Shown in pieces: positions 16,690 to 63,362 of a DNA stretch of 64,000 bases. The DNA is from Ceratodon purpureus. Its lineage: Eukaryota > Streptophyta > Bryopsida > Pseudoditrichales > Ditrichaceae. Within the stretch, counting starts at the first letter, position 1, and each line of letters opens with the position of its first letter. The notes beneath the pieces are model-generated. The model was not told the DNA's origin and ran no database searches. It saw only the letters and a program-made list of their open reading frames with translations. The translations under genes were made by a program, and so were the position numbers. The stretch covers positions 28,541,037-28,605,036 of the forward strand of contig CM026426.1 of assembly GCA_014871385.1 (NCBI GenBank), given 5' to 3'.

Positions 16690-17480
16690 TACTTTGGGGA
16701 GTATGATGTCATCATTGACACTATATGTTCTTTTTATATTATACACCTATATTACTATTTGAAAGAATATTCTCTTTGTAGGAATATTCTATTTGATAGA
16801 CAATCAAATTATAACATGTGCCTTATTGTTTTTCATTTTTTTATTTATTTTATTTATTTTTCCTTCTAAATACTTTGGGGACTATGATGTCATCATTAAC
16901 ACTATATTTTCTTCTTGTATTATCCACCTATATTACTAAATAACAAAGTATATAATTTCTTAACGAATCTAATTATCACATGTGTTTTTTTTTTTTTTTT
17001 CCTTTTCTGTTTATTTCTTTGGAGAGTATGATGTCATCCTTGACACTATATATTCTTCATGTATTACCCATCTACATTACTATTTGTAGGAAAATTCTAT
17101 TTGATAGCCAATCTAATTATCACATGTGTTTTTTATTTTTTATTTTTTTATAATCCTTCTAAGTACTTTGGGGACTATGATGTCATCATTAACACTGTAT
17201 TTTCTTCTTGTATTATCCACCTATATTACTAAATAACAAAGTATATTATTTCTTAACCAATCTAATTATCACATATGCCTTTTTTTTAATACTTGGAAAT
17301 TTGATGACAGCCTCGACATAATTTAGTCTTTTCGTATTACCCTCTTATATTTCTAAATAAAATAATATTTTGTTTCTTGGCCAATCAAATTATTACATAT
17401 ATACCGAGTTTTTCTACACATTTGGGATTATGATGTCATCCTTGACATATATATCCTCGTCCAAATGTTTCCTGCCATGT
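16690..17480. repeat. Dimeric minisatellite with a TGATGTCATC core
   Basis: Six units share a start like TACTTTGGGGA, then TATGATGTCATC, a CACTATAT block, CACCTATATTACT and CACATGTG followed by T-runs. Units begin near 16690, 16871, 17014, 17164, 17290 and 17415. Units 1 and 3 resemble each other (a GGAATATTCTATTTGATAG-like block) and units 2 and 4 resemble each other (GGGGACTATGATGTCATCA with ATTAACACT). This gives an ABAB higher-order pattern of about 290-325 bp. Units 5 and 6 are more decayed. The array ends just before the left edge of the palindrome domain. Confidence 0.78.
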
Positions 17481-17527: not shown

Positions 17528-17563
17528 TTTTTATAAGGGGTATTTAAGTAATTATGGACAAAA
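17528..17563 (+). repeat. Imperfect inverted repeat, left copy
   Basis: About 31 of 36 positions match the reverse complement of 33315-33350, with one gap. Shared pieces are TTTTATAA, GTAATT and TGGACAAAA. Motifs like GGGTATTTNGGTAATT recur in plant intergenic DNA, which weakens the case for a true TIR. Confidence 0.45.
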
Positions 17564-17772
17564 CGCTCAATTATGGACTACTTTGCATCATCAGTAGACG
17601 TCCAATTCATGTGTTATCCCTCAAATTTAAAGACAAAGATGTCAAATATTTATGAAAAAATGCATTCCGTTTACAAGGGATAAAATCATTTGAGTGAATT
17701 TATTATAATGTTGAATAGAGGACATCCCAGTCCCACTGTCATGGCCGAATCTCTCGGCGAGTGGCTGACTGA

Positions 17773-17830
17773 GAACCCTAAACCCTAGAAACCCTAAACC
17801 CTAGAAACCCTAAACCCTAGAAACCCTATC
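17773..17830 (-). repeat. Interstitial telomere-like repeat
   Basis: Three and a half tandem copies of AACCCTAAACCCTAGA. This is a degenerate plant-type telomere repeat (CCCTAAA strand) about 250 bp inside the left edge of the candidate element. Similar telo-box motifs occur in plant 5' regions, so a telomeric origin is not implied. Confidence 0.85.
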
Positions 17831-18126
17831 CTTAGAAATCTATCTGTTCTAATAAAAGGAAATACTTGCTCTGCAAAATGTGGATCTGTGAAGTGAAGCG
17901 GGTGAAGGGAAGATCGTCGGCGTCCCGCTGAGTGGACACGACTGCCAGGCATCTCACATTGGGGTGTCCGTCTGTGAGGACTCCGGAGTCGTCGTTTAGA
18001 ATGAACAGTATTCACGGTCACAACGAATGGAAGTCCTTTGTAGTCGGCTGGCCGCCGACTAGGAGAGCCAACCTCTTCCTCACTCAACCGACCTCTGGAA
18101 TCTGAAATACATATAAAGATGATGAG

Positions 18127-18420
18127 GAAATAAGTCCTAGTCCTAGTGATAAAAATGATGAGTAAGCTAGTCCTAGTCGGCTATCAGCCGAGTAGGAGAG
18201 TAGGGGCTACTAGTCCTAATGATGAGTAAATAAGTCCTAGTCCTAATGATGCAAATGATGAGTAAGCTAGTCCTAGTCGGCTACCAGCCGAGTAGGAGAG
18301 TAGGGGCTACTAGTCCTAATGATGAGTAAATAAGTCCTAGTCCTAATAATGCAAATGATGAGTAGGCTAGTCCTAGTCGGCTACCAGCCGAGTAGGGGAG
18401 TAGGGGCTACTAGACTAGGT
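18127..18420. repeat. 100-bp tandem repeat, 3 units, each with one palindrome
   Basis: Palindrome variants GTCGGCTATCAGCCGAG (18176) and GTCGGCTACCAGCCGAG (18276, 18376) are spaced exactly 100 bp apart. The rest of the unit is built from AGTCCTAGTCCTAATGATG and GTAGGGGCTACTAGTCC. Units are nearly identical, so the array is young. A separate full palindrome, GTCGGCTGGCCGCCGAC, lies at 18043. Confidence 0.9.
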
Positions 18421-18510
18421 TGACGTTGGCAATTAGTCGTCGAGAAAACCCTAGAGAAGTGGATTACTAGAACGTTTACCAGTTTACTAGACGAACTCGT
18501 CGGCTGTCCA

Positions 18511-18570
18511 CTGTAGAAGAAGGTCGCATACTGTAGAAGCAGGTCGCATACTGTAGAAGTTTGTCGCATA
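18511..18570. repeat. 20-bp tandem repeat, 3 units
   Basis: CTGTAGAAGAAGGTCGCATA at 18511, with variants at 18531 and 18551. It lies directly upstream of the ORF that starts at 18591, presumably in its 5' UTR. Confidence 0.85.
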
Positions 18571-18590
18571 TTGTCCAATATTTTGTCGTT

Positions 18591-19112
18591 ATGGTGAGGC
18601 GTGGTAGCAATGTGAGACCACTGGGTTATCAGGAGTCACCGGCTGACCTCGAGGAGCTCCGGCCATGGTATAGGGCGGTGGTCGCCCGTTCTCGCAACAC
18701 CGCCATTCCAGGTTTCAAGTACATCACACGCCTTCTGCAGCCAGGTGCGCAGTGGTTTTGGAGTATTGCTCACAGCATTGAGTTGTTGGAGATCGCTGAC
18801 GCTTCCGGCATCGCCTTCCCACTGACATTCGAGGAGCCCGAGGAGTCTGAGGAGTCCGAGAGTGTTGGCAGCGTTCACTTCAGCCACACAGGGGAGGTGT
18901 CAACGCAGACCATGTCAACGGCAGGGTGGCTCCGCATTGTTGGCAAAGCATACGACAACTTGGAGGGTGCTGGAAGTCGGTGCTCTGGCCAAGATCAGTG
19001 GTGCGGAGGGAACGCAAGCCCGCAGTCCACGTATTCGTCGTTTGGATCCGTGCATCCATCCGTCGATACTGGGTGTAGTGCTGTCCGAGCCAAGTCTACT
19101 GCGAAGGACTGA
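18591..19112 (+). CDS. Hypothetical protein in the left part of the palindrome element
   Basis: The start at 18591 is the second Met of a longer open frame and gives MVRRGSNVRPLGYQE, 173 aa. The first about 85 residues look like real protein (ELRPWYRAVVARSRN, LLQPGAQWFWSIAHS), followed by an acidic stretch (FEEPEESEESES). After about residue 120 the composition becomes random-like, while the +1 frame (to 19170) ends with a short hydrophobic tail. A frameshift or an unrecognised intron near 18960 is possible. No family is recognised. It is the only plus-strand gene on the left side of the element, and the codon use is GC-richer than in the flanks. Confidence 0.4.
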   Translation: MVRRGSNVRPLGYQESPADLEELRPWYRAVVARSRNTAIPGFKYITRLLQPGAQWFWSIAHSIELLEIADASGIAFPLTFEEPEESEESESVGSVHFSHTGEVSTQTMSTAGWLRIVGKAYDNLEGAGSRCSGQDQWCGGNASPQSTYSSFGSVHPSVDTGCSAVRAKSTAKD

Positions 19113-19169
19113 TCGCTTCATGGCGTTGGCGACCATATGCAGCTTTTTTGGTTTTTTGGCTTTAGGGTG

Positions 19170-19763
19170 AATTACTGTGTGTTAGAACTGTCCAGCTCGT
19201 TTTCAATAGAGCTGCTTCACACACTCGGATAGTTGTAGAATTCATGGTTAGTATTTGTTACTGAGGCTTTAGGAGTAGTGGCATCTCTGATGTATACACA
19301 ATACAAAGTAACATGTAAAGGGCGGAACACTACCGTTGTACTCCGATAAGAATATAATGAAATGGATAAATATTTTTTCCCAGTTTCTCAAAGCGCATAG
19401 TGGTTCTACCAATGTTGTGGAAAGCGTCGGCGGGCAGCCGACTAGAGTAACAGTGTCCACCGTAAAAATCAAAGGCCATACAATATAGACCAGCCTCACA
19501 AAGTCACCGTTCATGATGCTTATCTAACATGGTTAGAGGCATCGGCGGACAGCCGACGACCACCGAAGAAGGAAAAGTAAGGCATCAGAACAACAAATAG
19601 AAGACAAAGCGTAATACATGACTAGTATTGGGTCTACGGTAGAATACAATTCTTATTCGAAGGAATCACAGTGTTTACAATATTCAACTATAACGTTTAC
19701 AGAGGAAACCATCACTAGCTACATCTTCTACAGCTAAGATCACAATCGTCGGCGGGCAGCCGA
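19170..19763. other. 3' intergenic region with three palindromes
   Basis: No gene seen. It holds palindromes at 19426-19442, 19541-19557 and 19748-19764. The last one touches the stop codon of the minus-strand DUF7869 gene. Confidence 0.6.
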
Positions 19764-22700
19764 CTAGTCTTCCTCCTCGTCATTCCAGTTCATCGAGATT
19801 CCATGCGATTCGAAGTTTGCCATGGCAGCAATCACAACATCTTCGGGTATTAGATGGGACTTTGGGGGCCCCTCATGCGTAGTTTTCTTGGTCCTATGAG
19901 TGTATACAACGGATTTACACTCCACCCACTCCGCAAGAGTCAACTCCCTTTCCCACCGTCTTGTCCAGCACTCTCTCGCAACCTTCTTCTTACCTTCCTT
20001 CTTGCCCTTCATCGGAGTCCACCATTCAACCTTGAACTTACCGTAATTAGGACCAGGCTCTGTTATAACAGGCTCTATCGCCCTACCCATCCAAATGGGT
20101 AGGTGGTCTTCCTTACACGGACGACAGAAAACCCAATCGCCACGTAAAACGTCACGATATGGGTTAAACACAGACTTCGGCCTAGAGTTTTTCGGACCAC
20201 AGAAAGGATAGGGCTCCACCTCATCCTCGTCACCGGGACGAATATCCGGATCCGGTATATATTCGTCCTGTGCATCGAATGTGGTGACGTGGTCCCGCTT
20301 CCAGTCTGAGATAGGCCAGAATCCTTCCTGTAAGGTGGCGGAATTGGGGGGCAGTGGCTCGTTGACCTCCTTTAAAATTCGCTCCCAATACAGTACATAT
20401 GGTAACATGTCTTGTGCGTATTTCTTATCCCGAGCCATGCCAGTTCTCCAGTACTCAATGTACTTAGATAATCCACTTTTAATGACATTTCTCTTCTCTG
20501 AACACTCCGCTGCCCTTGCCACCTCTTTATCCGCGTTCTCCTTGCCCTCATCGACTTCAACACTACCCCATAAGTGCTTATGAGGAACCGGTTTGGGATC
20601 ACCGACGGGCAAACGTGGTTTACCCTCTTTGTCTGCCCTCCACATTTTCACGGGTTTGCCAGGTGGAAGCCATGACGGATCAGTTGCACGCTTCTTGTAC
20701 CTCATTACGGGCCACCCCGCATCCTCCCCATCCTCCACCACATAGAACTTAAAAAGATGCATTTCACTGTGACCTTCTATCGCATTACCTCCGTCGTGAT
20801 GAAAATCAGCAACATAACTTTTGAAGTCTGCCACTTCCTGAACAAACTCTGGAATAAAGGCAACTGTCTTCTGAGAATCCATGAATGCCTTCATAAGGTC
20901 TGCAAGGCAGTATGTGTTCTTTCGCTTAATGAGTTTCGATAGGTGACTGAAGTGGGCGTCGATGTCCTCATGTGTGTGTCCCACAATCAGGAAACCAACT
21001 GTAACTTCCTTGAATATTGGCCTCGCCGTCAGCAACGAGCAGAATGCTAGAAGAAACCGGTTCTTGTTGTCCTTCGCAGAATTGTCAAGCTGGAGATACA
21101 ACTTCTTCGGCAAAGGAACAGCAGGCCTACCAGGCAGAGGTGGAGTGAGTGGCTCATCTCTAGAAGGTGGAATTGAGGGGATGCAACGTGACGATCCATG
21201 CATTAGCGCTGCAAAGAATTCATTCTGTGGCGGTGCCTCGAAGAGTGCTTTTGACTCCCGGACAGGTAGTCTCTCCAAGGCACGGAATACCCTGCACAAC
21301 GAGGAGATTGTGAAATTTGGGTCTCCTGGCCACAGGGCAGTTGCATAGTGTGCGTAGGCGCCATCTCCGTGACCGTGAGTCAGCATTCCAGTACAGGAAA
21401 TCGGAATTTGACCAAGCCTTGCCGTAGCCTTCGTGATACGTTGCATGCGGGGGATCGCTGTTTTCGATGTGTCCATCTTATCATGTATGATGCATAGGAA
21501 CTCAGTAGGACTCTGTATAGATTGGGTTGTCCATCCGTAATAAATGTTGCGACAAGCTCGCTGATAGTTCAAATGCCTCGTCCTATCCTCTGTCAAGCTC
21601 TGCCACTCGTCCGACCCTCTTGGATACTTGGCAATGAGTTCAACGAGGAAGTCACACTCAGTGCACTTGGAGAAATTACTTCCTACGGCCTTGACCTCAA
21701 CGTTGCGGAAGTACTCCTTCCTCATGCGACTAACGGAGGACTGCGAAATCAGCTTCGCGTTGCACTGCTCATTGACCTGAATAGCACAGAGTGAGGTCGA
21801 TCAGTTGGGAAGTTCGTCATCCAGTCGGCGGGCAGCCGACGATAGTAATCACTACAATTCAATAAACTATCCAAAGTGAAAGAAGATGAGGAGGAACTTA
21901 CGGCGTTGGCCATTTCGCGCAGGTGGTTCCAGTTCATCGCAGACGGGAGTACTTTGAGCGCGGCCACTCTCTTCTTGCCAATCATCCGAAACTCATTGGG
22001 CATTTGGTCGGCATTCTCATTAACGATAGTGGTCAACGTCGCGCGGGCCTGGATTGTGTGAATCTGGGGACGATGTACTCCGGAATTTCCGTGACTCCCA
22101 CTGACACGACTACTTCGGGCCGCAGCCTTGTAGCTGTAGTACGCGGATTTCGATACTCCGTGAATGATATACCACGCCACTTCACATACGTCAACGTTCG
22201 CAAGAGTAACATAGAGCTTCCGCTTGCCGGGTACAGTATGTAAGTGCCCTTGCACAGCGAAGGACATCTCTCGCCTCGCCTGGAATGTTGTTGCGTAAAA
22301 TTTACGCCGAATACTCACAGTATCTTCCCATCTAAAAGTCTGGCAACATCGGTCCTTGCAACAGCGCTTTGAGCTCACTAAGCGGCATTCAGCAGGGACA
22401 ACCATTCGACGAAGCTTAGTGGAAGAGACGTCATCTTTTTCACGGACTTTCCTCCGCACCGATCGATAGGCATTCTTCGGGACACCATCCAGACCATCGT
22501 CCATGTCGGCGTCTACTAAATTCTTGGAGCAGTAAGTAATTATATCAGAGAGAAGGTGACCCCCTTCTAACCGAGTGTGAGTCAGACGCCATCTGAGAGT
22601 TGTCATCTGCAGATGATCGTCTTCAGAGACGAAGAGAACCCCAACCTCTGTATCCCCTAGGACTTCATCATCACATGCCTCGTCCGGTAAACATACTTGA

Positions 22701-23674
22701 ATCATTGCTCTACCACGGATTGATAGATCATCATTAAGAAGTTCGACATACCGATTTCTCCAGAGGTGGCGATCAGGATAAGAAGCATCTGGAGTGGAAG
22801 AAGTACCCGAGGTCCCGGAATCCGGACCCCAACAATGATCATCTGTTTCTACGTCGGATTCCCCTTGTTTAGACACATCGTCGTCACTGCTGATATTCAT
22901 TGGAGACCTAGTCCCCAGATCCTGCTCAGACGGAGCGGAGTTGCTTTCATCAATTTCCTCATCTTCGTTCCCCAAGTGAGGCTCCGTCGGCGGGCAGCCG
23001 ACGGGACATGTGCCAGCCAACGCGCCGTTCACAAGTGGACAGACCTTGTATCCACTCCAAAGTACCAATCGCCCCACAGCACACCCGATCGTTAACACAT
23101 CCGGTAACTCGCAGAAAGCAGGTGCTTCAGAGAATTCTGGATTGACGGACGACACTCTCACTATTAGAAAGAAGCTGTGAGGAATCAAGAACCCCTCCCA
23201 CGTTCCTTTAGGAGAGCACTCCATAATGACTCCAGCGGCTACACAGCGCTTTGAGCCTCCGGATTCCTCGAGGAGCGCAACTTCCATATGCTCTGCGAGG
23301 TCCAGGAATTCTTGAACGGGCTTGACATCTTCTTCAACATCCGTCGGCGGGCAGCCGACGGCGTTGATGTCATCGTCTTCCACCTCTCCGAAAGGCCTGA
23401 GGTCGGCCGCCTCCCACAATATCATTTGTCCTAAGCAGTTGCTCAAGGACTTCGCACCCTCATCCGGAAATGGTATATTCATTTCCATGCTGTCTGAAAC
23501 CTCAATCAGTTTTACCACCACCACTATAGGATCAAATTCTACAACACGTTGGATCACTGCCCTGCCTGCATAATAGAGCCCAGAATGAGTAAGGGCCACG
23601 ACAACGCCCTTTTTAACCTTCCACCGCCCTGATCGGCCATTCCTTAGAAACGTCTGGATCGGCTCTACTTCCAT
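19764..23674 (-). CDS. DUF7869-family protein, DDE transposase-like
   Basis: Two exons, 21902-23674 and 19764-21776, joined by a 125-bp GT-AG intron (donor GTAAGT at 21901, acceptor ATTCAG at 21777). The join is in phase (REMANA then VNEQCN), giving about 1261 aa. The start was chosen at MEVEPIQTF; a Met 30 codons upstream would translate a palindrome in a different frame from all others. An acidic, disordered N-terminal third is followed by a cysteine cluster (KRCCKDRCCQTF, about 436), HGNSGVHRP (about 530), then the DUF7869 core: HDKMDTSKT (about 690), LQLDNSAKDNKN (about 820) and GHTHEDIDAHF (about 860). These acidic residues fit a DDE/RNase-H-like site, which is inference. Two palindromes are coded in the linker as VGCPPT. 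It is divergent from the ParB-like gene and is probably the element's recombinase. Confidence 0.8.
21777..21901 (-). other. Intron of the DUF7869 gene containing a palindrome
   Basis: Donor GTAAGTTCC and acceptor GCTATTCAG on the minus strand. The palindrome at 21824-21840 starts 61 bases after the donor. Confidence 0.85.
22986..23359. repeat. Two palindromes inside DUF7869 coding sequence
   Basis: Copies at 22986-23002 and 23343-23359, both GTCGGCGGGCAGCCGAC on the plus strand. Both are read in the gene as VGCPPT (CPVGCPPTE, NAVGCPPTD). They sit in low-complexity, charged linkers rather than in conserved blocks. Confidence 0.9.
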
Positions 23675-24683
23675 TGGATAAAAGATGAAGACCTCGTCGG
23701 CGGACAGCCGACAGGGTCGACAGGAAGTGTCCCCGCCGACGGAGTGAAATGTATCCGCCGACAACGAAGACGACTCGGCGGGCAGCCGACGCGGATCCTA
23801 CGACTCGGAGTGTGCACAGAAATAGCATCCGCCGACGATGACGGACACGTCCGCCGACAGAAATTGCAGGGGACCTGAGTTGAGAAGCAGTATGATGTCC
23901 CTAACCTGTCCAATCAGAGACTCCTCTCAACCGTCCAATCAGAAACGATAGACGAAGACAACAGAAACGGCAACAGAAGGTGCGGGACAGTTAAGCACAT
24001 GCGGGAATAATAACGGTCCTCTCAGGAAACGTGTGCGTCAGGAGCACTCTCAGAGGGAATCGAAAGTGCAATGACAGAAATAGAATGAAGTATGCGCATT
24101 TGACGGGGGGTTAGTTATGAATTCCCAGGAGTACAAATTGGCGCCAGAATCGAATTCAATTTTGCGCGCCATGGACAGATCAAGATCCCATCATGGCGGC
24201 GAGATGCCCCCGCCGTCACAGAACAATGTTGGTTCATTATTACGAATTTGAACGTGGCGATTGGAGCAGCTGTCATATCACATGCCCAGGCCATCATGAC
24301 TGGGTGACGGATTGAAAAAAAGTCAAAAGACGTCCCATCATCATCCTACGTGGCGTGATGGGACGGATGTTAGGGATGACCATCCATGCATGGATGGTAT
24401 GTACATAGCCATACGTCATGACCCATCGGGCGTGACGATTCAGTCTCGGGAGGTGGGGGTCTGCAGGGTATACACCCGCCACTCCCGACATTTCCTCCTC
24501 ATTTCCAGCCTTCTCTTTTTCAGCTCTCTTTTGTCCTCTTCTCAGCGCTCCGCAGAGGTCGCGTCGGCTGCTAGGTTTTTCTGCGTCGGCTGCTAGGGTT
24601 GAGGGCGTCGGCTCCTTCACCTGCGCGCGTCGGCTGCTGTTTGAAGGTCATCCACCGACGGTGAAAGGCCATCCGCCGAGGAC
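23675..24683. promoter_or_regulatory. Divergent intergenic region between the DUF7869 and ParB-like genes
   Basis: About 1 kb shared by two divergent genes, so it should hold both promoters. Full palindromes lie at 23696-23712 and 23774-23790. Half-sites of the CCGCCGAC type lie near 23744, 23754, 23829 and 23850, and of the CGTCGGCTGCT type at 24560-24640. They cluster in what would be the two 5' UTRs. 23860-24560 itself has no palindrome and no supportable gene. No clear TATA box was identified. Confidence 0.55.
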
Positions 24684-27600
24684 ATGGCAGCCTCCGAGAG
24701 TGGGTAAGTTGTCCAGTCGGCTGTCCGCCGACGCTCCCCTTCTTGAGTCCTTCAAGTTTCCAATTTCTCGCCTGGGTTTGTCCCTCCCGTCGGCTGTCCG
24801 CAGACGCCACCCCTGCTTTTGTCCTTCGTGTTTCTGTTTTCTCGCATGAGTTTGTCCCTCCCGTCGGCTGTCCGCCGAGGCCGTGACCCCTTCTTTTGCC
24901 CTTCATGTTTTGTGTTCTGGCGCATGGGGTTGTTCCTCCCGTCGGCTGTCCGCCGACGCCGTGATCCCTTCTTTTGCCCTTCATGTTTTGTGATCTGGCG
25001 CATGGGGTTGTTCCTCCCGTCGGCTGTCCGCCGACGCCGTGACCCCTTCTTTTGCCCTTCATGTTTTGTGTTCTGGCGCATGGGGTTGTTCCTCCCGTCG
25101 GCTGACCGCCGACGCCACCCCTTTCTGAGTCCTTCATTATTCTATTTTCTCATATGGGTTATTCCCCCCGTCGGCTGTCCGCCGATGGAGTGAGAATCTG
25201 ATGGTCTAATCTTGTGATTCTAATTTTGCAGGGCGAAGGTCGACTCCACCGCAAAACCAAATGGGTTACGGTGGCTCTGTGACAAGGTTGTTGATCCTGA
25301 AGTAGAAATACTCGCACGGGGCTTGAAACCGAGGGTGACATTCCTCGCTGATTCGAAGATAACGGAGTGGGGCATCACCTGGCGTGACACTCCCATGTCG
25401 CTGGGCTTCGTGACCAAAATAGGTCAGAAGCAAATGGCAGGTGGACCAAGATTTGAGATTATTGGTGCCAGGGAATGCGAGGATAACGACAACGTGTTCT
25501 TGGTGTTTGCATCGGTTCCTGTCGCGGAGGGCACACCAGTGGACTGCTTCGCGGTTGTAATTCCGGTTGAGAAGTGCATGGACGGCTTGTGCTCTAAAGA
25601 AGTACAGGATGCGGCTACTTGGGGCAGGGGCGAGAACATAGCTGTTGAACAGATACTCGACGTGATTGATACGCTCGGGGACAAAGTGATGGAAGAGAAG
25701 ACGAAGAACTTGGTTAAGCCTGCAGCAAAGAAAAGAGGCGGCCGCAAGTCTGCTGTAGAAGCGGGCACTGGTACAGTCACCCCCGAGACCGGAGAGACAC
25801 AGACGACAGGGGAGTCATCGAGAAGGAAGAAGGGAAAGGCAGCGGCTGCTGAGGGCGAGGGTGGGAAGAAGAAAGGTGGGAAGAAGGAAGAGAAGAAGCG
25901 GACCGTGGCGGAAGCTCTCATGCTCGCAAACAATCTCACTTCCAAAACAAAGGACACCGACGTCCTTGCCATGTACCAGACGTTGGAGGAGGGACTTGGG
26001 CACTGCTTCCCCAACGGGCAACGTGCCCTTCCTTGTCAGATTCCATATAACAGGATACACATAGCTCCCGACGAATTCAAGTATAGAGCGATATTCAGGA
26101 AGAGGCAGGATCAGATAAGTCTTTTCTACAAAGGACTTGGAGCAATCCGGAAGAAGCCCGAGCTGTACTGCCTTCCTATGAGTGGTGACCCCAGAGTAAA
26201 GGATCCAGTGACGGGCGAGATTAAGCTTAAAGGCTTGGAAGGACTTCTTCGACCTTGGATGGCCCTTAATTTCAAGTATTCACTTACACTGGATGACGGC
26301 CAAACTAAGCTGGTACCTTGGTATGAAGATGAGGGCATCCACTGGTACATAATTGGGGGCCAGCACACGTTTGAGGCTTGTCGAGAACTGGGAGAGAAGG
26401 AACCACTGGACTCTCCTATGCGGCAGTATTACCTTAACCACGACATCATTCCTGTATATGCTGATAACAAGGATACCCTCATTAAGGTCTCTAACGCATT
26501 AAACATCGAGGTGAAGGATAAAGTCGCCGAAGTAAGTTTCAGGTCCCAGCTGGCGAAGATGCGCGCCAAATGGATTGAGCGGGGGAGGATCGACAAGAAA
26601 GATGACTACAGCGCATGGAAGGTAATTCACATCTTCCTCTTTTCCTGTTGTTTCCATGTAGTTGAAAGTCGTCGGCGGACCGCCGACGCTCAAGTGGTTC
26701 TCCGTATTGCAGAAGTGGGATTTATTTATCAATGTCATTTTCTTCTTCCTTGCAGGAGTTCTGCAAGGAGTACCTCAGTCCGATTCTCGGAAAGTCCCCT
26801 ACGTCCCAAACCTTCAAGGTGCCCTTAGTCTTCGTGTCTGACGAAACATACAACGAGTGGCAACTGGTGTTCGACGCCTGGGAGGAGGGGAGGATCATCG
26901 GGGAGGACGGTCTGAAACCAGGATTTCCCCCAAAGCCAGCCCGCCGGGACATAACATTCAACGACATGCAGTACGTGATCGGTCTTCGGGACCACGAATG
27001 CAAGAGGCTGGCCAAGGAAATTCTGGACCTTAAAGTGTACGTCAAGGTCACTGGGAAAGAGGTGGTTCAACGGGATGGAACATCAGTGGAGAATTGGTGT
27101 AAGCGTGTGAAATTCGAGTATATTGTCCGGAACGAGCTCATGTGTATTTACAGGGGCTTTGCACTGAAGAAACCAGGGACTGGGAAGCATATTGAGTGGA
27201 GCATGGATGACTGGAATTCCCTTGAAGTCGAGAAGGGGTTCAATGATACAATGATTAGTAATATTCGGGCTGACTTGGAAGATAGTCCTGAGGGGAAGGA
27301 GTGGCTTAAGGGACGGAATCATCCGCTCACGCCGTCGCAAGGGCCAACACCAGAATTCTTCAAAGACATTGTGCAAAAGTATTGGAAGTCGGATGTGGAC
27401 CAGTCTTCGCAGTCGTCTGTACAGTTCGATGTTCGGATTGCAGAGGACCTGGGTGAAGTGTGCACAGCTCTTGACGTTCGCGGAGCATTCTCCTTCAACA
27501 AGGCGCAGTATGAGATGTTCGTGGTCTTTGGCTACGATCTAGCGGGAAAGGAGATGCCTAACATGCGACAACAACACATTATAACTGTCGCTGAGAGGAT

Positions 27601-29409
27601 TCACCGTGAGGTGGAGGAGGAGGTCATTCAGGTGGATGGGGAGGTAGATACAATTAAGGTGAATAAGCTTGTCACCCCATCCTTGTGGCTACTCGATGCT
27701 GAGTGTAATCACACTCTTCAAGGCGTGTCAAGGCTGACGAGTAATTCGTGGACGGTTCATACTATGCAGTACTTCCCTGATAGTTCCGCCGGGTTTCAAA
27801 GGAGTTCTCTCATTGACTCTAGACCCAAGGTTCATGTGTCCGTTATGTATCCAAGAACAACGCCCGGGGATGCATGGAATACCTTCTCGGACTTCACTGG
27901 TTTGAAACGTCCGCTTCCTCCCTATGTGGACAAAGGAGAAGATCATCTTGGGGAGGATTGGTCAAATGGACACTGCCACGCTAGTTTCTCTTTCCTCCAA
28001 TCTCTTCTGGAGAAAGCGATGCAGATTGAGGACGTTCGGGTGATCAATTGCTGGGGAGGGGGGAACGTCACGGCCCTCGCTCTGGTAAGTTACTGCAGTC
28101 TCTTCTGGTGCCTTCGCTTTTTGCTCACCGATCGTCGGCGGGCAGCCGAAGCTCATCGCATACTTCGTGTTTCTCGGGTACAATATTTCCTGAACCGTTT
28201 TGTCTTGTTCTTCTGCAGAAAAACCATTTGACTGTAATTGAGATCGTGCGTACCGAGGAAGAGAGATACGAAGCGCACTGTCGGGTTCGGAATATGACGT
28301 TCATTCCGGGCGTTTATAACGTGCCCGTCGAAGATCCAGTTCGGACCACGCAGTCTGGGGCCGGGCCGTCTGTCCCCGCCTCTGCTAGAGGCAGGACTGG
28401 CTCTCTCACGGCTGCCGACTTGGGTGTGAATGCGGAGGAGGCCCATTTGGTCGGGAAGGGTGGATGTATGGGTTCGGGGAAGACTGCGGGGGTTCCCTCA
28501 CAGATTTTTCAGGACTCCGACGACGATGTCGACGAGGACCCACCAGATGTACCCGACCCAGACGTTGAAGATGAAGCTGGAGATGCTGAGGAACAGCCAA
28601 GAAACGAGGACGACCAAGCTGAGGCTCGCATTCCAACTGGAGATGCAGAGGTAGAGGAGCGAGACACGGAGGACTTAGACTATGAACCAGAACCCGACGT
28701 ATTTCCACTCGAAGAATCGAATCCTCGTTACGTGAACCCACCGATGTCGCAAGTTCTAGGGGAGCAAGGAACTGACTCCCTCAGCTTCGGTATTATTTCT
28801 CCTACATTTCAAGAGCAGGAGACTCCTCTTGCCGAGCCAGAACGTGATTTAGACCAGGCGGGGCATCCAAAGAAGATGCAGGTTCCTCTAGCATCGAGGC
28901 CTGACGATGAAGTGGTTCTCCGTGTCCAGAAGACAACCCAGGAGCCTGTAGTGAGCATTGAAGGGCATGTTCCTCCTGCTGCCGTCGGCGGGCAGCCGAC
29001 GGCAGACGAGCAAACCTCATCTAACCCCTCTGCCAAGACCAAGTTGACAGGGAAGTCAATCGCATTCGTCACTCAAGGTGTGAAGGGCGCAACTCGGATG
29101 ATTGGCCCGGATGAGAACCCTCTGGTGAAGACACGATCAATGAAGAGAAGTAAGACCGATGGTACTGCGCAGGATTCCTCTCTTGTGGGTAACTTATCCC
29201 GTGATTCCTTAGGGGTTCAGGAAGGGGAGGAGTCCTCTGGGAAGGGCAAACGGAAGGCTGCTTCGAAGAAGACTTCCTCCAAGAAGGGCACATCTGGGGA
29301 TCTGCTCATGAGTCCCAGGAATGTGGACGCTCCAGAGGACGTTCTGTCACCTCCGCGGGCATCCAAACGGGAGCCTAGGCCGAAGAAGCACAAAGGTGGA
29401 GGTCAGTGA
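24684..29409 (+). CDS. ParB/DGQHR-like protein, multi-exon
   Basis: Exons 24684-24703, 25232-26621, 26756-28084 and 28219-29409. All joins are GT-AG and in phase: the first exon encodes MAASES plus two bases, and later joins give AWK/EFCKE and TALAL/KNHL. About 1309 aa if it ends at the TGA at 29409. A folded N-terminal domain (about 1-165) leads to a Lys/Ala/Glu-rich linker (about 170-228). A ParB/sulfiredoxin-like core follows, with WYIIGGQHTFEA (GGQHT about 382-386) and IPVYADNKDTLIKVSNALN (about 415-435). GGQHT stands where ParB has GERR and DndB-type proteins have DGQHR. A long second domain, then an acidic, disordered tail with one palindrome coded as VGGQPT (28984) and lysine-rich ends (KRKAASKKTSSKK). 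Presumed nuclear DNA-binding protein; the ParB-like call is inference from motifs. Confidence 0.75.
24704..25231 (+). other. First intron of the ParB-like gene, made of a palindrome array
   Basis: Donor GTAAGTTG at 24704 and acceptor TTTTGCAG ending at 25231. The intron is 528 bp and consists almost wholly of tandem units of 73-78 bp. Palindromes begin at 24716, 24789, 24863, 24941, 25019, 25097 and 25170. The unit body includes CCCTTCTTTTGCCCTTCATG and GGCGCATGGGGTTGTTCC. The central three units are near identical. Antisense ORFs reading VGGQPTGG repeats are shadows of this array. Confidence 0.9.
26622..26755 (+). other. 134-bp intron of the ParB-like gene with a palindrome at offset 49
   Basis: Donor GTAATTCAC, acceptor TTCCTTGCAG. 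The palindrome GTCGGCGGACCGCCGAC is at 26671-26687, followed by GCTCA. Confidence 0.88.
28085..28218 (+). other. 134-bp intron of the ParB-like gene with a palindrome at offset 49
   Basis: Donor GTAAGTTAC, acceptor TTCTTCTGCAG. The palindrome GTCGGCGGGCAGCCGAA is at 28134-28150, followed by GCTCA. Length and palindrome offset equal those of the intron at 26622-26755, although the remaining sequence differs. Confidence 0.88.
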
Positions 29410-29641
29410 ATCAGGCGGTGGCCCAGTCCATCTTTTAAATGCGTGCATTGATAATTTAGTGTAGTGATCGGGCGCTAGGATTGTGTTAGATGTTTGTACT
29501 GCCAAATATGAATAAATTTTCGGTAAATGCCAAGTTGTACGCTTTCCCTTTTTTCAAATAATGTTGCTTGCAAGTCGGCTGTCCGCCGACCGTCATCCTA
29601 ACCGTCACGTTTGTCCTCTGCTTCGTTTTCTGTCACTCCAG
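29402..29641 (+). other. Candidate alternative intron linking the ParB-like and HAD exons
   Basis: Donor GAG/GTCAGTGA at 29402 removes the TGA stop. Acceptor CACTCCAG ends at 29641. The join gives KGGE then SADKEVHGK in phase. The skipped DNA holds a palindrome (29574-29590) and a poly(A)-signal-like AATAAA at 29512. Retention would end the protein at 29409; splicing would fuse it to the HAD exon. Confidence 0.6.
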
Positions 29642-30411
29642 AGTCCGCGGACAAGGAAGTCCATGGAAAACTTCACGAAGATAGACCCAGTGCAGTTCTG
29701 GAGCAGGGACCTCCACCTCTGAATCCACTTCACATAGCCCCGGAACAGGCTGGTACTCAGGTACACGATCCAGTGCTGAAGTACTTTCTTGTTCTGGATA
29801 TTAACGGCCTGCTATTAGTCCAGACGAAGCAGGGCACTAGGTGGAATACTAAACTTAGACCGGGTTTAGAGAAGTTCCTAGAGTTCTGCCTGGACAATTT
29901 CGAGGTGGTCTTCTGGAGCTGCGTTCAGGAAAAGAGGTTCGAGATTCTGTCGACAATGTTGCAGCAGCGCTGTCCTCGTCTAGATGCCGAAGTGCGCTAC
30001 AAGTTCGACCAGAGTTTCTGCGAGACTTGCGTACATAAGGCTAGTAGGGAGTTTTATTTGAAGAGACTCCAGACCCTCTTTGACCTCGATGACGGGCTGA
30101 AGGGGACGGGGGCGTCTTCAATTAACACTCTCTTGGTTGATGATTCCCCTTATAAGAATGTCGCAAACACTCCTTGGAACGCTGTGCACCCTACACCATA
30201 TACCTTCGAGTCGAAGGAGTCGGAAAATAAGAGGAATTATCTCGTTGGAGAATTGATTTCTTGGCTTACCAGTTTGAAAGAATCTAAACTCCCCGTGCCC
30301 GAGTACTGCCAGAAACACTCCGAATTCGGTCAGCGTCATCTGTTTCCGTGGGATGAAGCTTATAGTCTCTTCTCTCCACACATTGATTGCCCTAAACGAA
30401 AGAGAACATAG
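29642..30411 (+). CDS. FCP1/NIF-type HAD exon 1 (probable pseudophosphatase)
   Basis: 257 aa in one open block with no usable upstream ATG, so it is probably a 3' exon of the ParB-like gene. HAD motifs: I = FLVLDINGLLL (nucleophile Asp kept, the +2 Asp replaced by Asn), II = VVFWSC, a central basic YLKRL, and III/IV = NTLLVDDSPYKNV. The +2 Asp acts as general acid/base in FCP1 phosphatases, so weak or no phosphatase activity is inferred. The tail ends in basic PKRKRT, a possible nuclear signal. A poly(A)-signal-like AATAAA follows at 30499 and a palindrome at 30452. Two more diverged HAD units follow downstream. Confidence 0.78.
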
Positions 30412-30451
30412 TAGATGTAGAAACTGTTTTAGAGAGCATGCACATGATTCA

Positions 30452-30468
30452 GTCGGCTGCCCGCCGAT
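30452..30468. repeat. Palindrome between HAD exons 1 and 2
   Basis: GTCGGCTGCCCGCCGAT, 41 bases after the HAD1 stop codon. Confidence 0.9.
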
Positions 30469-30725
30469 GGGATCTTCATGTATTTAGACTTTTTCAGTAA
30501 ATAAAGTTTTCCTCCTTTTAAATATATGAGAACGGAACTCAGTGTCGAGACTGTGTATTCTGTCGTGGGTGTCTTATTGTGTCTCCATTTGTACACTACA
30601 GCAAGTATGAATTGTGAGCATGCGATTGATCACCGGAATTTTCTTGGAATTTGTCCTTCATTTTTCAGGAGTCACTGGAGGATGACGCTGAAATTAAAGT
30701 GCACTAGGGACCTTCCCTTCTTAGT

Positions 30726-31766
30726 ATGCTCTTGGAGGAGTACCCAACATCTCCTGATGGTGATGCTCTCAGAGAAGAGTCTCCGGGAGCGGAAGCCGAG
30801 AATGTCAGTGATGGGGAGGACGAGTACGACTATCCAGTCGGCGGGCCGCCGACGCTGTCTGCTGCACATAGCTCTGGCCAGTGTGCGATGGCTTCCACCT
30901 CGTTCGTCGAGACCAACGTCGCGATCCCGCGCACCGGTTCCCCGCGCGATGATTCCGTCAGTGTCAGCACTGATATTATTGCGCGTAATATTGAGGTACC
31001 TCTCCAACGATACTACCTTGTCCTTGACATTAAGGGATTGCTCATCGCGGAGCACCACGGCTATATCGGTGATGACCAGAAGACAAAAATTCATATCCGG
31101 GCTAGACCAGGACTTCTTTCATTTCTAGAGTTCTGCACGGCGAATTTCGAGGTAGTCTTTTGGTCCACGGTTTCTGAGAAGAATCTCGATCGTCACTTCC
31201 AGAAGCTGTTAGCCATTCATCCTTTGCTCAGGAGCAATTACAGACGCCTTCCAGGATTCTGGTGTGATATCTCAACAAGGACTAATCCGAATGGGAAACG
31301 GGAGTACTTGTTGAAGCGTCTGGATAGACTTTTCTGCGACACTAGGCTACTGGCTCGATCAGGTGCCACTGTCCAGAATACCCTACTGGTAGACGACCGC
31401 CCTTATAGGAATGTACTTAATCATCCATTTAGCGCTGTCCATCCTAATTCTTTTTTCTGGGACTCTGCAGAGTGCAAAGAACCTCGATCCACCCCCAATC
31501 CCTATTTAACTAGGGTAGTTACACCATTCCTTGCAGGACTTAAGCAGTCTGGATTGGATGTCCAGGAGTATTGTAGGAGGAATTCTAGCGTGGGGAAGCC
31601 ACGTCTTTTTCCAGAATCTCGCGAATACCAGAAGTATAGGGAGGTTATTCCTTCTCATGCATGCGGGTTTGACGTCCCGGGTAATCCTGGATCTTGGTTT
31701 GTGAATTTACCTTGTCCTCCGGAGGCCCCTGGTAGTTCCATCATCGGCGGGCAGCCGACTGATTAG
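30726..31766 (+). CDS. FCP1/NIF-type HAD protein 2 (probable pseudophosphatase)
   Basis: 346 aa, paralogous to the preceding HAD exon. HAD motifs: YLVLDIKGLLIA (Asp kept, +2 position Lys), VVFWSTV, YLLKRLDRLF and NTLLVDDRPYRNV. The N-terminal part is acidic and disordered and codes a palindrome as VGGPPT (30837-30853). The last residues, IIGGQPTD, are coded by another palindrome (31743-31759) directly before the stop. The chosen start follows a strong acceptor-like tract (CCTTCCCTTCTTAG). An alternative exon start at 30669 (ESLEDDAEIKVH) stays in the same frame but meets a TAG at 30705, so a nonsense mutation is another reading. Confidence 0.72.
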   Translation: MLLEEYPTSPDGDALREESPGAEAENVSDGEDEYDYPVGGPPTLSAAHSSGQCAMASTSFVETNVAIPRTGSPRDDSVSVSTDIIARNIEVPLQRYYLVLDIKGLLIAEHHGYIGDDQKTKIHIRARPGLLSFLEFCTANFEVVFWSTVSEKNLDRHFQKLLAIHPLLRSNYRRLPGFWCDISTRTNPNGKREYLLKRLDRLFCDTRLLARSGATVQNTLLVDDRPYRNVLNHPFSAVHPNSFFWDSAECKEPRSTPNPYLTRVVTPFLAGLKQSGLDVQEYCRRNSSVGKPRLFPESREYQKYREVIPSHACGFDVPGNPGSWFVNLPCPPEAPGSSIIGGQPTD

Positions 31767-32075
31767 AGCCTACATCAGCGGCGCCACTAGTTTTAAAAAT
31801 CACATATGATACTCTGCACTCTTTAGTTTAATACGCTAAGACTGTTCCCTTTCTGAACTTCCCTGCACCACACATTTGTTTCCAGTGCTGCAATTCGGTA
31901 CTTCTTTTTGTAGATGCATGCATGACATTTCACTTGCTGCACATTTACCTTTGAGGTTTCTTCAATGCATCGTTTTGTCGGCGGGTCGCCGACGACTTTG
32001 AATGTAGTCCATTTCTTTCATATACTTCGTCCTGTTCCTTGATTTCCTTCACTGATTGCATTTCATATTCTTCAG
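31767..32075. other. Spacer or intron between HAD units 2 and 3
   Basis: Holds one palindrome at 31977-31993 (GTCGGCGGGTCGCCGAC) and ends at a good splice acceptor, CATATTCTTCAG. No gene seen. Confidence 0.55.
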
Positions 32076-32753
32076 GGTTCCTCGTTTTATTTCAAATGCC
32101 TTCACGGTCCACCTCATCATGTCAAGAAATGTATTGTCCTATGCGTCAATGGCCTTCTCTGCTATGTGGATCCCAGGATAGAGGCTTTGCCATGGGATAC
32201 GCATCGGAATGTAGTGAAGCGCCCAGGTTTGAAGAAGCTTTTCGACATGCTTTTCTTGCATTTCCATGTTGGTCTGTGGTCGAAGATGCCCTTGGGAGAA
32301 CTGAAGCCTTTACTCACACATATTCAACCGGCCGGTGTAATGGAGAGGCTGTCCTTCGTGTATAGCAGAAGTGACCTTATCGACCGGGAGAATTTCCCCT
32401 GGAGTTATAAGACGTTAGGTCAAGTTTGCTCCAAGGTACAGTCTAGAAACGTCTGCAAACTAGATCAGGTGCTATTTGTGGATGTTGACCCGAGGTCATT
32501 GAGGAGGACACCAAACTGTATGTGCTACATTCCTTGGCCTTTTCAGGGTCATCTAAACTTTCCGAACGATGACGGCGTTATACCTAACATTGCTACAGAT
32601 ATCCTTCCTCTGGTTTATCCCTTGCACAAGTTCGGATCTGTACCGGAGTATATGGCGCAGGCGTGTAGGCCGGGGCAAGTGCACTGGGCAATTGAAGCTG
32701 CGAGAAAGTTTGGACGTGCACGAGTGGACTGGACTGAAGTTTGCTGGGACTGA
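32076..32753 (+). CDS. FCP1/NIF-type HAD exon 3, catalytically dead
   Basis: Open from the acceptor at 32075 to TGA at 32753, 225 aa, with no convincing start, so probably a spliced exon or a relic. It aligns with the two upstream HAD units: KKCIVLCVNGLLCYV (the nucleophile Asp is Cys), HVGLWSKM, then QVLFVDVDPRSL and FGSVPEYMAQAC near the C-terminus, where the others have VPEYC or VQEYC. Loss of the first Asp removes HAD catalysis. With units 1 and 2 it forms a tandem series of increasing divergence. Confidence 0.65.
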   Translation, partial: GSSFYFKCLHGPPHHVKKCIVLCVNGLLCYVDPRIEALPWDTHRNVVKRPGLKKLFDMLFLHFHVGLWSKMPLGELKPLLTHIQPAGVMERLSFVYSRSDLIDRENFPWSYKTLGQVCSKVQSRNVCKLDQVLFVDVDPRSLRRTPNCMCYIPWPFQGHLNFPNDDGVIPNIATDILPLVYPLHKFGSVPEYMAQACRPGQVHWAIEAARKFGRARVDWTEVCWD

Positions 32754-33300
32754 GTTAGGCGGACTTTTTCGCCTCCAATTTGCACTTCTTCCCTCCTCCT
32801 GACCAACAGAACACCTTCCATCGGCTGCCCGCCGACTTGGTCGACCCGTTTGTGCGGCCTTCAAATATATGATTTACTCATTCACCTTACGGCTATGCTT
32901 TCAGGGAAATAGTTTTCAGAGTAGGTTATAATGTGATAGGATTTACGTGAACTTGGTACATAGTGCTGGGTGTAGACTTAATGTTGTAGGACTTCAGGAC
33001 TCAAAGTGCTACGGGACTAGTTAGTTTAGCGTGTTCTATTATCGGCGGGTCGCCGACTCTGTATTGTACATTTCATTACTTGAATCAACATGATATTCTT
33101 TAAAGTATTCATTGTAACTCTTATTCTGCATTATATGTCGCAATCTTCGGGTTCATATATCCATCACTGGCAAATTCCGCCCATGACATCTCGATGTCTA
33201 GTTTTGCATTCCATATTCTGTGGTATTCATGTACAATGACACTGTTCATCTGTGGTCTCCATCCATCGGCGGTCCGCTGAGTTTGCATTGGTCATTTTTG
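32754..33300. other. 3' region of the element with three palindromes
   Basis: Palindromes at 32820-32836, 33041-33057 and a decayed one at 33264-33280. No gene seen. This is the last DNA before the AT-rich flank. Confidence 0.6.
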
Positions 33301-33314
33301 AATTCTGGACTTTT

Positions 33315-33350
33315 TTTTGTCCAGAATTACCTAAATATCCCTTTTATAAA
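33315..33350 (-). repeat. Imperfect inverted repeat, right copy
   Basis: Partner of 17528-17563. Its inner part also forms a local hairpin, GAATTCTGGAC against GTCCAGAATT (33300-33328). Confidence 0.45.
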
Positions 33351-56747: not shown

Positions 56748-56772
56748 AATTTAGCTCGAGTCCAGCTAAAAA
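56748..56772. repeat. TAGCT palindrome between the ParB-like and HAD blocks
   Basis: TTTAGCTCGAGTCCAGCTAA at the core. Its place corresponds to the intron that carries a palindrome between the ParB-like and HAD exons of the intact element. Confidence 0.85.
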
Positions 56773-57063
56773 TATCATTTGTATTAATTACAAGTGTTTG
56801 GTGCAAAAATGCACATTTATATGAATTACGCCGTTATTAGCACCTCAACTAAAAATGCCAAGTTCTAGAAAAATAAGTCTTAGAGGGACCTGAAGATGTC
56901 TTGGGACCATCTCCTTGAGTCTGAGTGCAAACGGGAGAATTGGGTAGGCTCGGACTACAACCAAGCATGTGAACATTGGGAGAATGATGCCTGGGCTTAG
57001 GCACCAATGTGGAATCATCTGTACTAACAAGACATCAGCTGCAGTGCTAGAGGAATCAATCAG

Positions 57064-57387
57064 TTATCGAACATGCGTCATAGGGATCCAATGTGCTCCT
57101 AGAAGAATGCTCAGATGAACTGCAGCTGGAGGAATGAATTTTGGAAACATATTAGCCACGATGCTCTCCAAATTGGCGCTCATATTGAATTTTGCAAACA
57201 TATCATGAGTCTGGGCCTTCACTGTGGCGGCAAAACTTTTGTGTTGAGGTACCAACCTCTCCTCCAATTGCTTCTCTTGAGCGAGAGCCTCCTGAAGTCT
57301 GAGGAGAATTTTGAGTTCTTTGTATTGGCGCTGACTCTGCCTAATGGAGAAGTGCGCTCTGATGTTGTATCGACTCTCAATTAACAA
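57064..57387 (-). pseudogene. Coiled-coil fragment within the second element
   Basis: Open frame of 107 aa with heptad-like LLRLQEALAQEKQLEERL. It lies between the ParB-like block and the HAD block and between palindromes at 57402 and 56748. I do not see a counterpart in the 24.7-29.4 kb gene. It could be an exon private to this copy. Confidence 0.35.
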
Positions 57388-57401
57388 ACCACTGAGGTGA
57401 C

Positions 57402-57512
57402 ATTTTAGCTTGACTCAAGCGAAAGTGCTACTTTACAACATAAGTGAAAACTAGTCAAGAAAACATAATGACATCAAAACCTTTGCAATTTAGCTTGAGT
57501 TGAGCTAAAAAG
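57402..57512. repeat. Two TAGCT palindromes, 85 bp apart
   Basis: TTTTAGCTTGACTCAAGCGA (57402-57425) and TTTAGCTTGAGTTGAGCTAA (57487-57512). They lie between coding blocks, as intronic palindromes do in the intact element. Confidence 0.85.
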
Positions 57513-57809
57513 TGATTTCTTGGGTGAGAGAACTCACGTTGTAGGTATTTTTGCTCGCTAGTCTACTCGCGGTGGACCTTGACTTTTTCGCGCCCGCAGC
57601 GGCATGCCTCGGATGCGGCCTATCATGTTTCTCTTAGACTACTCTTGCGGCAAGAATGTTGGTTGCCGAAGTTGTTTTGAACAAGGAGAGGTGGTTCACT
57701 TGATTGTTTAATGCCGAGATCTTCCAAAGCTTGTCCATGTCGTTCGTCCAAACAACAAATGCGTTTCACTTCCTAAAGTCGTTGCATATTTCATCTATTG
57801 CATTTTCGT

Positions 57810-58840: not shown

Positions 58841-59059
58841 GGCCCAACACTCAAATAACTTTGAGAATCCCCATCATCGTCTTCCTCTGTTATGTTTGGA
58901 ATAAGCTTGAAGAAATGGCTCAAGGCCATTGTGACTTGGCTTTGATCATCATTGCACATAGTCAACCAATGTTGTTAGATAAATATGCTTGATTGGATTG
59001 TAAGGAGACTGATGCAATTGTTCAGGTGTATTGCAAAAGTTCTTCTAATTAGCTTTATA

Positions 59060-59408: not shown

Positions 59409-59409
59409 G

Positions 59410-63360: not shown

Positions 63361-63362
63361 CA

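Follow-up and report, generated by a model that had tools for sequence, protein, structure and literature searches.

Why should a nuclear locus of the moss Ceratodon purpureus carry some 30 copies of one short palindrome, GTCGGC-N5-GCCGAC (motif 1), within about 15 kb? We addressed this question in a window of 64,000 nucleotides (the whole stretch of DNA that was analysed, from contig CM026426.1), which a preliminary description had presented as a locus with a private palindrome. The palindrome is indeed private, but not to a single locus: it belongs to a multi-copy transposon family, with 2858 exact sites in the genome compared with 3 for the reversed control.

The palindrome-bearing element and its copies

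The region is a 15,809-bp element (17535..33343) and is a cut-and-paste (class II) DNA transposon of a superfamily that we leave unnamed; in the text available, a Repbase overview (PMC4455052) lists no TSD (target-site duplication) length per superfamily. It is bounded by terminal inverted repeats, AAGGGGTATTTAAGTAATTATGGAC... on the + strand at the left end (17535..17563) and ...GTCCAGAATTACCTAAATATCCCTT on the - strand at the right end (33315..33343), which, after reverse complementation, agree at 31 of the 36 bases compared, a stretch that includes 7 bases of flank. The boundaries come from 17 paired element copies, all of which have AAGGGG at the left end and 16 of which have a target-site duplication (TSD) of constant length, 4 bp; the exception is L017/L074, and one of the 16, within a poly-T run, carries no information. 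CACTA/En-Spm transposons have CACTA termini and a 3-bp TSD, and membership of that group was ruled out by the AAGGG termini and 4-bp TSD seen here.

The element is large and recently mobile, and the window holds one of many near-identical copies in the genome, with its DUF7869 exon 98–100% identical in at least 65 of them. The first 50 genome sites of the palindrome all lie on contig C1, and among these listed sites the motif is confined to three clusters (49 sites) apart from 1 orphan. Each cluster contains one copy of DUF7869 and one of a companion gene, so the genome scan that had been proposed to look for a gene association found one wherever the clusters could be read. Among the matches listed, a companion copy lies within 9 kb of DUF7869 in 52 of 65 copies, in divergent orientation in all 52. 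Searching viral contigs with the DUF7869 alignment and part of a companion exon returned no relatives, and among the titles and abstract starts listed in an open-licence literature search none named these elements.

The window copy carries a DUF7869 gene, the divergent companion gene and three ORFs resembling NIF (NLI-interacting-factor-like phosphatase) that are probably cargo. The DUF7869 product matches PF25273 (E = 3e-43), for which the Pfam entry gives no function. Its candidate acidic motifs IHDKMD, QLDNxxxDNKN and VGHTH, which are conserved in A1, make it a putative DDE-type transposase, and its setting in an element with terminal inverted repeats and TSDs suggests the same role. Neither DUF7869 nor, at E 0.001, NIF ORFs 1 and 2 had a match in the PDB, and no paper on DUF7869 was found in the open-licence literature.

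Form and placement of the sites

In the window, motif 1 has 16 exact sites, spanning 18043 to 31993, compared with 0 in 100 dinucleotide shuffles. Allowing one mismatch gave 29 sites, all within 17535–33343, and allowing two gave 31, where 0.79 would be expected; every one of the 31 falls within the element, with none at this threshold in the rest of the window. The copy number of about 30 and the confinement reported in the preliminary description therefore both stand, with 29 of its 30 positions recovered at the coordinate given, with 0 or 1 mismatch, and the other, 33264, present as a weak copy with 3 mismatches. Two palindromes with 2 mismatches each, at 17753 and 17916, were missing from its list. 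Half-sites are less exclusive than the full palindrome: GTCGGC occurs 33 times inside the element and once outside it in the window, and GCCGAC 26 times inside and 6 times outside.

From the left, a palindrome near the element's end (18043..18059) is followed by a 100-bp tandem array (18119..18413) with sites at 18176, 18276 and 18376, a TAYCA core and G as last base, and by sites 19426, 19541 and 19748 (19426..19764) in the 3′ flank of the DUF7869 gene. That gene lies on the - strand. Its exon 2 (19767..21776), encoding the putative transposase core, has no palindrome; its inferred intron (21777..21901), with GT and AG at its ends, has one at 21824–21840; and exon 1, with an inferred start (21902..23674), has two in frame within acidic linkers (22986 and 23343) and shows N-terminal homology to the 966-aa DUF7869 family at 22771–21899. 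Two palindromes (23696 and 23774; 23696..23790) lie upstream of the start codon.

On the + strand, the inferred exon 1 of the companion gene (24684..24703), with its ATG, precedes an inferred intron 1 (24704..25231) in which a 73–78-bp tandem array holds seven palindromes (24716–25186). Exon 2 (25232..26621), which contains the box YIIGGQHTFEACREL and is found in at least 92 genome copies, and exon 3 (26756..28084) are free of palindromes; the inferred introns 2 (26622..26755) and 3 (28085..28218) have one each, at 26671 and 28134, and exon 4 (28219..29409), encoding an acidic/basic tail, has one in frame at 28984 (VGGQPT). The three NIF ORFs follow on the same strand (29602..30411, PF03031 E = 7e-13; 30708..31766, E = 6e-10; 32043..32753, E = 4.6e-06). 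One palindrome lies between the companion gene and ORF 1 (29574..29590), one between ORFs 1 and 2 (30452..30468), two in frame within ORF 2 (30837 and 31743) and one between ORFs 2 and 3 (31977..31993), with 32820, 33041 and the weak copy 33264 near the right end (32820..33280).

Under these gene models, whose exons and introns were predicted from sequence for both DUF7869 and the companion, 10 of the 29 sites fall in introns, 14 outside genes and 5 in coding sequence. With arrays counted once, none of the 21 sites falls in the three conserved exons (P = 0.0006), and a palindrome is present in each of the four modelled introns (P = 0.004), the regions in both comparisons having been picked after the sites were seen.

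The palindrome had been characterized as having conserved arms and a variable loop. The loop does vary, but with less freedom than was reported, G occupying its second position in 26 of the 29 sites and C its fourth in 27. Next to the centre, the base is symmetric in 24 of 29 sites, and position ±2 is mostly asymmetric, being paired in 7 of 29.

In one half of the element there are hints of site conservation among copies; in the other half there are none. Across 29 copies of the DUF7869 half, the noncoding sites had 2 substitutions in 1961 bases, compared with 157 in 20265 bases of the remaining noncoding sequence; recounted as variable positions this gave p = 0.075, and of 553 further 17-bp windows of noncoding DNA, 38% had stayed as unchanged as a site. 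Comparing the right half of the window element with one C1 copy revealed no site conservation (2/119 versus 35/1462, p = 1).

Related families and the companion protein

Other DUF7869 families carry a different palindrome. Motif 2, TTAGCTCA-NNN-TGAGCTAA, has 1146 genome sites compared with 0 for its control and is found in the 966-, 980- and 942-aa families, with 47 of the 50 sites listed no more than 12 kb from a listed DUF7869 match. In the 966-aa family its placement is comparable to that of motif 1, with arrays 5′ and 3′ of DUF7869 and upstream of the companion, and a single copy, at L095:1037, separating the ORFs of the companion's exons. Motifs 1 and 2 are mutually exclusive between families: at up to 2 mismatches, motif 1 is absent from 7 motif-2 loci and motif 2 from the window element. 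Motif 3, TTTAGCTCGA-S-TCGAGCTAAA, a degenerate pattern with 2720 sites (0 for its control), is tied less firmly to a 955-aa DUF7869 family; one cluster begins 1.1 kb from a DUF7869 match 61% identical to the 966-aa one, and among the matches listed 1 of 3 clusters adjoins a DUF7869 match. All three motifs are dyads about one central base, and in motif 2 the base beside the centre is symmetric in 25 of 32 sites. Partial loci of the 661-aa and 879-aa families, about 2.5 kb each and chosen by position, such that a dyad may have been missed, contained no repeated one.

The companion had been labelled ParB-like. Searches of Pfam, NCBIfam, PHROGs, PADLOC and the PDB gave that label no support; it persists as a lead from a short GQH box that resembles the ParB/Srx motif by eye, and a ParB identity is unproven. 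Profile and PDB searches matched the companion to no DNA-binding family, and phage searches gave no ParB support. Plasmid records yielded 26 matches at E ≤ 10 (25 Klebsiella, one ParB/Srx protein at E = 2), and among the 10 of 26 listed the Klebsiella proteins were DUF6685 or unnamed (E 0.2–0.6). Aligning the companion with that ParB/Srx plasmid protein by hhalign gave a probability of 0.5 of 100, compared with 0.5 and 0.2 for two controls, and a single-sequence AlphaFold model of the companion had a mean pLDDT of 35 and was unusable. Between families, companion homology is weak (22%, E = 7e-4, in one 1.9-kb locus, with composition correction off and a basic linker included).

What the palindromes may do

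The best explanation of the whole, to which we give an even chance, is that the palindromes are binding sites for a dimer of an element protein and provide self-recognition and protection from silencing. Each palindrome would be a double-stranded site with two half-sites around one central base, with the companion or else the N-terminal part of the transposase as its reader. With clusters close to the promoters and the first intron, and single sites in spacers, in coding linkers that tolerate them and in each of the modelled introns, the protein could coat the whole element, and this coating would let it recognize the element as self. The likeliest purpose would be sequence-specific protection from host silencing together with activation of the element's genes, and the sites may also serve assembly for transposition. 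In related families the site is a different one, presumably with a changed reader protein as well, which would prevent cross-talk; that their palindromes differ in sequence but keep one geometry suggests that an element-made protein reads them as a 'self' tag. Here both the binding and the anti-silencing are inferences.

The analogue that appears closest is the set of VANC motifs of Arabidopsis VANDAL elements. In the available text of two reports (PMC5735166, PMC10398659), each VANDAL family has a different short motif, dense in that family and rare in other TEs, which occurs as tandem repeats in introns and upstream regions and differs between related families; VANC protects VANDAL elements from silencing and activates their genes, and its motif, YAGTATTAY, lacks palindromic symmetry and lies mostly in noncoding sequence. 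The moss motif is likewise dense in its own family and, among the sites listed, rare elsewhere; it is present in tandem repeats, modelled introns and upstream regions, and mainly noncoding (24 of 29 sites). Unlike the VANC motif, each moss motif is a dyad centred on a single base, and coding sequence holds 5 of the 29 motif-1 sites; the putative transposase here is DUF7869 and not the Mutator-like VANA, and neither VANA nor VANC was found in the element, in which only DUF7869 and NIF scored above Pfam cut-offs. In bacterial ParB/parS, a short palindrome is present at a few sites near the gene for its reader protein. The moss element resembles this system in its repeated short palindrome near a candidate reader gene with a GQH box, and differs in having about 30 sites, in being a eukaryotic transposon and in having a companion that lacks profile or fold support.

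CACTA/En-Spm, hAT and similar transposons carry many copies of a short motif of their own near their ends, and the palindromes might be only transposase-binding repeats of this kind that assemble the transposition complex. We consider this unlikely, though both cases have many copies of a transposon-specific motif, the motif here tracks the DUF7869 family, and arrays lie near DUF7869 in both families and, in the window element, also toward the left end. Unlike subterminal repeats, however, the palindromes are spread through the whole 15.8 kb, with sites in mid-element as much as 7.6 kb away from the closer end and in introns and coding linkers. Such single sites in coding linkers, along with those in late introns and 3′ spacers, are also left unexplained if an element protein acts as a transcriptional autoregulator of its own genes with no anti-silencing role, a reading that we judge improbable even with the densest array in the companion's first intron and arrays upstream of both genes in the 966-aa family.

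The preliminary description called the motif a hairpin, and RNA hairpins might act in transcripts in processing, export or siRNA avoidance; the motif RNA folds well, at -9.4 to -10.3 kcal/mol for 17 nt, and the gene models place many of its copies in transcribed regions. A hairpin is possible but disfavoured, because the conserved symmetry extends to the bases flanking a single central base and the conserved G and C there cannot pair in a hairpin; with 10 of 29 copies in modelled introns and 14 outside modelled genes, a role in transcripts is very improbable. Finally, the palindrome might be a very small mobile insert that has multiplied within the transposon, with Rickettsia and REP-type palindromic elements as precedents; this would suit the large number of copies that differ in their flanks and the in-frame position of some of them within genes. 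We find it hardly credible: copies are nearly absent elsewhere (1 orphan among the first 50 sites listed), and the 966-aa family has a palindrome of another sequence that shares the geometry and is similarly placed, an outcome not expected of a hitch-hiking insert.

Returning to a self-recognition tag bound by an element protein, a broader proposal seems to us possible if somewhat doubtful: DUF7869 transposons may be a superfamily of large plant elements, each evolving its own private palindrome, centred on one base, together with a reader to match, with the tag spread element-wide, even into coding linkers, to mark self against silencing. This would be the VANC principle invented independently with a different transposase, reader and palindromic code and, if true, plants would have evolved sequence-specific transposon self-tagging on two or more occasions, using different machinery. 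Related families in this one genome carry two, and probably three, tags, and the gene pair is common to two of these families, so that swaps could directly test how a DNA-binding protein co-evolves with its site. The uncharacterized domain DUF7869 thereby gains a functional context, as a candidate transposase.

A palindrome confined, within the window, to one DNA transposon

The palindrome GTCGGC-N5-GCCGAC (motif 1) occurs exactly 16 times in the window against 0 in shuffled sequences, and 31 times with up to two mismatches against 0.79 in shuffles. All 31 matches lie within 17535–33343, bearing out the preliminary description of a repeated palindrome confined to a single domain; 29 of its 30 coordinates hold a copy with 0 or 1 mismatch, and the copy near 33264 has 3. 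The half-site GTCGGC was found 33 times inside this domain and once outside in the window, and GCCGAC 26 times inside and 6 times outside.

The domain ends in inverted repeats (31 of 36 bases matching), and an identical 4-bp duplication, not fixed in sequence, flanks 16 of the 17 copies with both ends, the window's included, with one of the 16 in a poly-T run and uninformative; the pair of loci L017/L074 lacks it. Thus, the domain is a multi-copy DNA transposon of 15,809 bp, otherwise ordinary in mobility. Searching the genome (362 Mb in 151 contigs, one of 110 Mb) with the left end gave at least 41 matches from the 40 candidates scored out of 305, all but one at 97–100% identity, starting between query base 1, the window's own copy, and base 36, which is window position 17535 and the start of 16 matches. 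The right end gave at least 40 matches at 97–100% identity (40 of 250 candidates scored). The exon of the element's DUF7869 gene had at least 65 matches at 98–100% identity among those scored, 56 of the 65 free of stops, and that of its large companion gene at least 92 at 93–100% among those listed; the companion exon (25232–26621) is thus the more variable among listed copies. The observed/expected CpG ratio is 0.86 in the element and 0.61 and 0.69 in its flanks, compatible with low methylation or youth. A 144-bp tandem array (16840–17287) lies directly outside the left end, and telomere-like AAACCCTAG repeats (17774–17828) lie 240 bp inward of it; a degenerate stretch resembling these repeats is present in a locus of a related family (L085:694–749).

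Genes of the element and placement of the sites

The DUF7869 gene lies on the minus strand (PF25273, E = 3e-43). Its IHDKMD, QLDNxxxDNKN and VGHTH motifs are conserved in a related family encoding a 966-aa DUF7869 protein, and could represent a DDE triad. The companion, divergent on the plus strand, showed no domain above any cut-off. It had been called ParB-like, a label that found no support in Pfam, NCBIfam, PHROGs, PADLOC or PDB beyond a by-eye resemblance of its GQH box, YIIGGQHTFEACREL, to ParB/Srx; a single-sequence structure model was unusable. Three plus-strand ORFs 3′ of the companion (29602–32753) have NIF phosphatase domains (E = 7e-13, 6e-10 and 5e-6). The phosphatase motif, DxDx(T/V), is degenerate in them (DING, DIKG and CVNG), and the three ORFs may therefore lack phosphatase activity.

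With introns inferred from GT/AG signals, the 29 sites with at most one mismatch comprise 5 coding, 14 in spacers, UTRs or the left flank, and 10 spread over four introns, 7 of which form one array. With arrays counted once, three conserved exons making up 30% of the element hold 0 of 21 sites (P = 0.0006), and each modelled intron has a site (P = 0.004, random placement), in tests that assume independent placement and the inferred gene models and concern regions picked after the sites were seen.

Across 29 copies of the DUF7869 half, noncoding sites had 2 substitutions in 1,961 bases, other noncoding sequence 157 in 20,265, coding sequence 310 in 98,361 and the single coding site 1 in 493. 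Counted by variable positions, noncoding conservation in this half was not significant (2/68 versus 69/710, p = 0.075); of 553 further 17-bp stretches of noncoding sequence, 38% likewise had at most one substitution. The right half, compared between the window and one further copy, showed no contrast at sites (2/119 versus 35/1,462, p = 1). The copies are too young to settle site conservation firmly.

Motif 1 and its counterparts in related families

Genome-wide, motif 1 has 2,858 exact sites, versus 3 for a backwards control. Of the first 50 listed, 49 fall in three clusters on contig C1, each with a DUF7869 and a companion copy, and one is an orphan; among the listed sites the motif thus goes with both genes, an association that the preliminary description had proposed to check. 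A listed companion copy lies within 9 kb of 52 of the 65 listed DUF7869 copies, divergent in all 52, with 5.6 kb the largest distance listed among them.

The DUF7869 profile had at least 150 matches in the same genome (150 of 1,396 candidates scored), representing many other families. One member of the 966-aa family (L085, L094 and L095; C6:70478700–70494400) encodes a DUF7869 protein 37% identical to that of the element (33% over 669 aa in a second alignment) and a divergent companion containing the box FMIINGQHSIVASQEL. The two companions share 22% identity over 269 aa, basic linker and one stop included (E = 7e-4 against a single 1.9-kb locus, composition correction off). Motif 1 is absent from these three loci, which carry motif 2, TTAGCTCAC-N-GTGAGCTAA, in tandem arrays of 26-bp period 5′ of DUF7869, 54-bp period 3′ of it and 41-bp period upstream of the companion ORF, with a single site separating the exon ORFs of the companion (L095:1037). 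The window element has motif 1 in comparable places: an array in companion intron 1, copies around DUF7869 and a copy in companion intron 2. Three 966-aa-family DUF7869 domains at C6:84406883–84412580, spaced exactly 2,312 bp apart, are probably a tandem duplication within one element copy.

Motif 2 is also present in partial loci of the 980- and 942-aa families, and has 1,146 exact genomic sites versus 0 for the control. Among the 50 sites listed, 47 have a listed DUF7869 match no more than 12 kb off, two are separated from one by about 32 kb, and the last is an orphan. Motif 3, TTTAGCTCGA-S-TCGAGCTAAA, first seen as a variant of this form at the right of the window, has 2,720 sites as a degenerate pattern versus 0 for the control. 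One of three listed clusters (C1:301920–312972) has a DUF7869 match, of the 955-aa kind, 1.1 kb from its start; the others (C1:18421488–18433540 and from C2:623063) adjoin none among the matches listed. A single site in the list is an orphan. The window itself has nine TTTAGCTC-type palindromes of the motif 2/3 kind (up to three mismatches) at 56750–63677, where tblastn found no DUF7869 homology; this segment probably belongs with the other DUF7869 families, either as a remnant or as a non-autonomous relative. No repeated dyad was found in about 2.5 kb each of the 661- and 879-aa families.

Each of the three motifs is a dyad centred on a single base. Between motifs 2 and 3 the differences fall mostly at the inner positions, and the associated DUF7869 proteins (966- and 955-aa kinds) share 61% identity; motif 1 is unrelated to both, and its DUF7869 is 37% identical to that of the 966-aa family. 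Such a pattern would be expected if each site evolved together with the protein that reads it, though the families are few and the 661- and 879-aa ones showed no dyad in the stretches covered.

Candidate function of the palindrome

Copies run all along the 15.8 kb, introns and coding linkers included, a spread not accounted for by simple transposase sites of the subterminal type. The 29 copies that deviate from motif 1 at no more than one position share the core TCGGC-K-G-N-C-M-GCCGA. Its central base varies, with a G on one side in 26 copies and a C on the other in 27, and positions ±2 are mostly asymmetric (paired in 7). The conserved G and C extend the symmetry to positions that could not pair within a hairpin loop, and so speak for a dimer site on double-stranded DNA rather than a hairpin. 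The most economical reading of the sequence is that an element-encoded dimer would bind the palindrome as a family-specific site.

The nearest described system is that of the VANDAL elements, in which, as passages of PMC5735166 and PMC10398659 describe, the VANC motif is short, is dense in one family, forms tandem repeats in introns and upstream regions, differs between related families, and is read by the element protein VANC, which induces loss of DNA methylation. The element resembles VANDALs in anatomy, but neither a Mutator transposase nor VANC was found in it, and it is therefore not a VANDAL member; binding and demethylation as by VANC would be predictions from that likeness. What is unusual, and testable, is a family-specific palindrome distributed over a whole element and replaced in related families by others of equal geometry.
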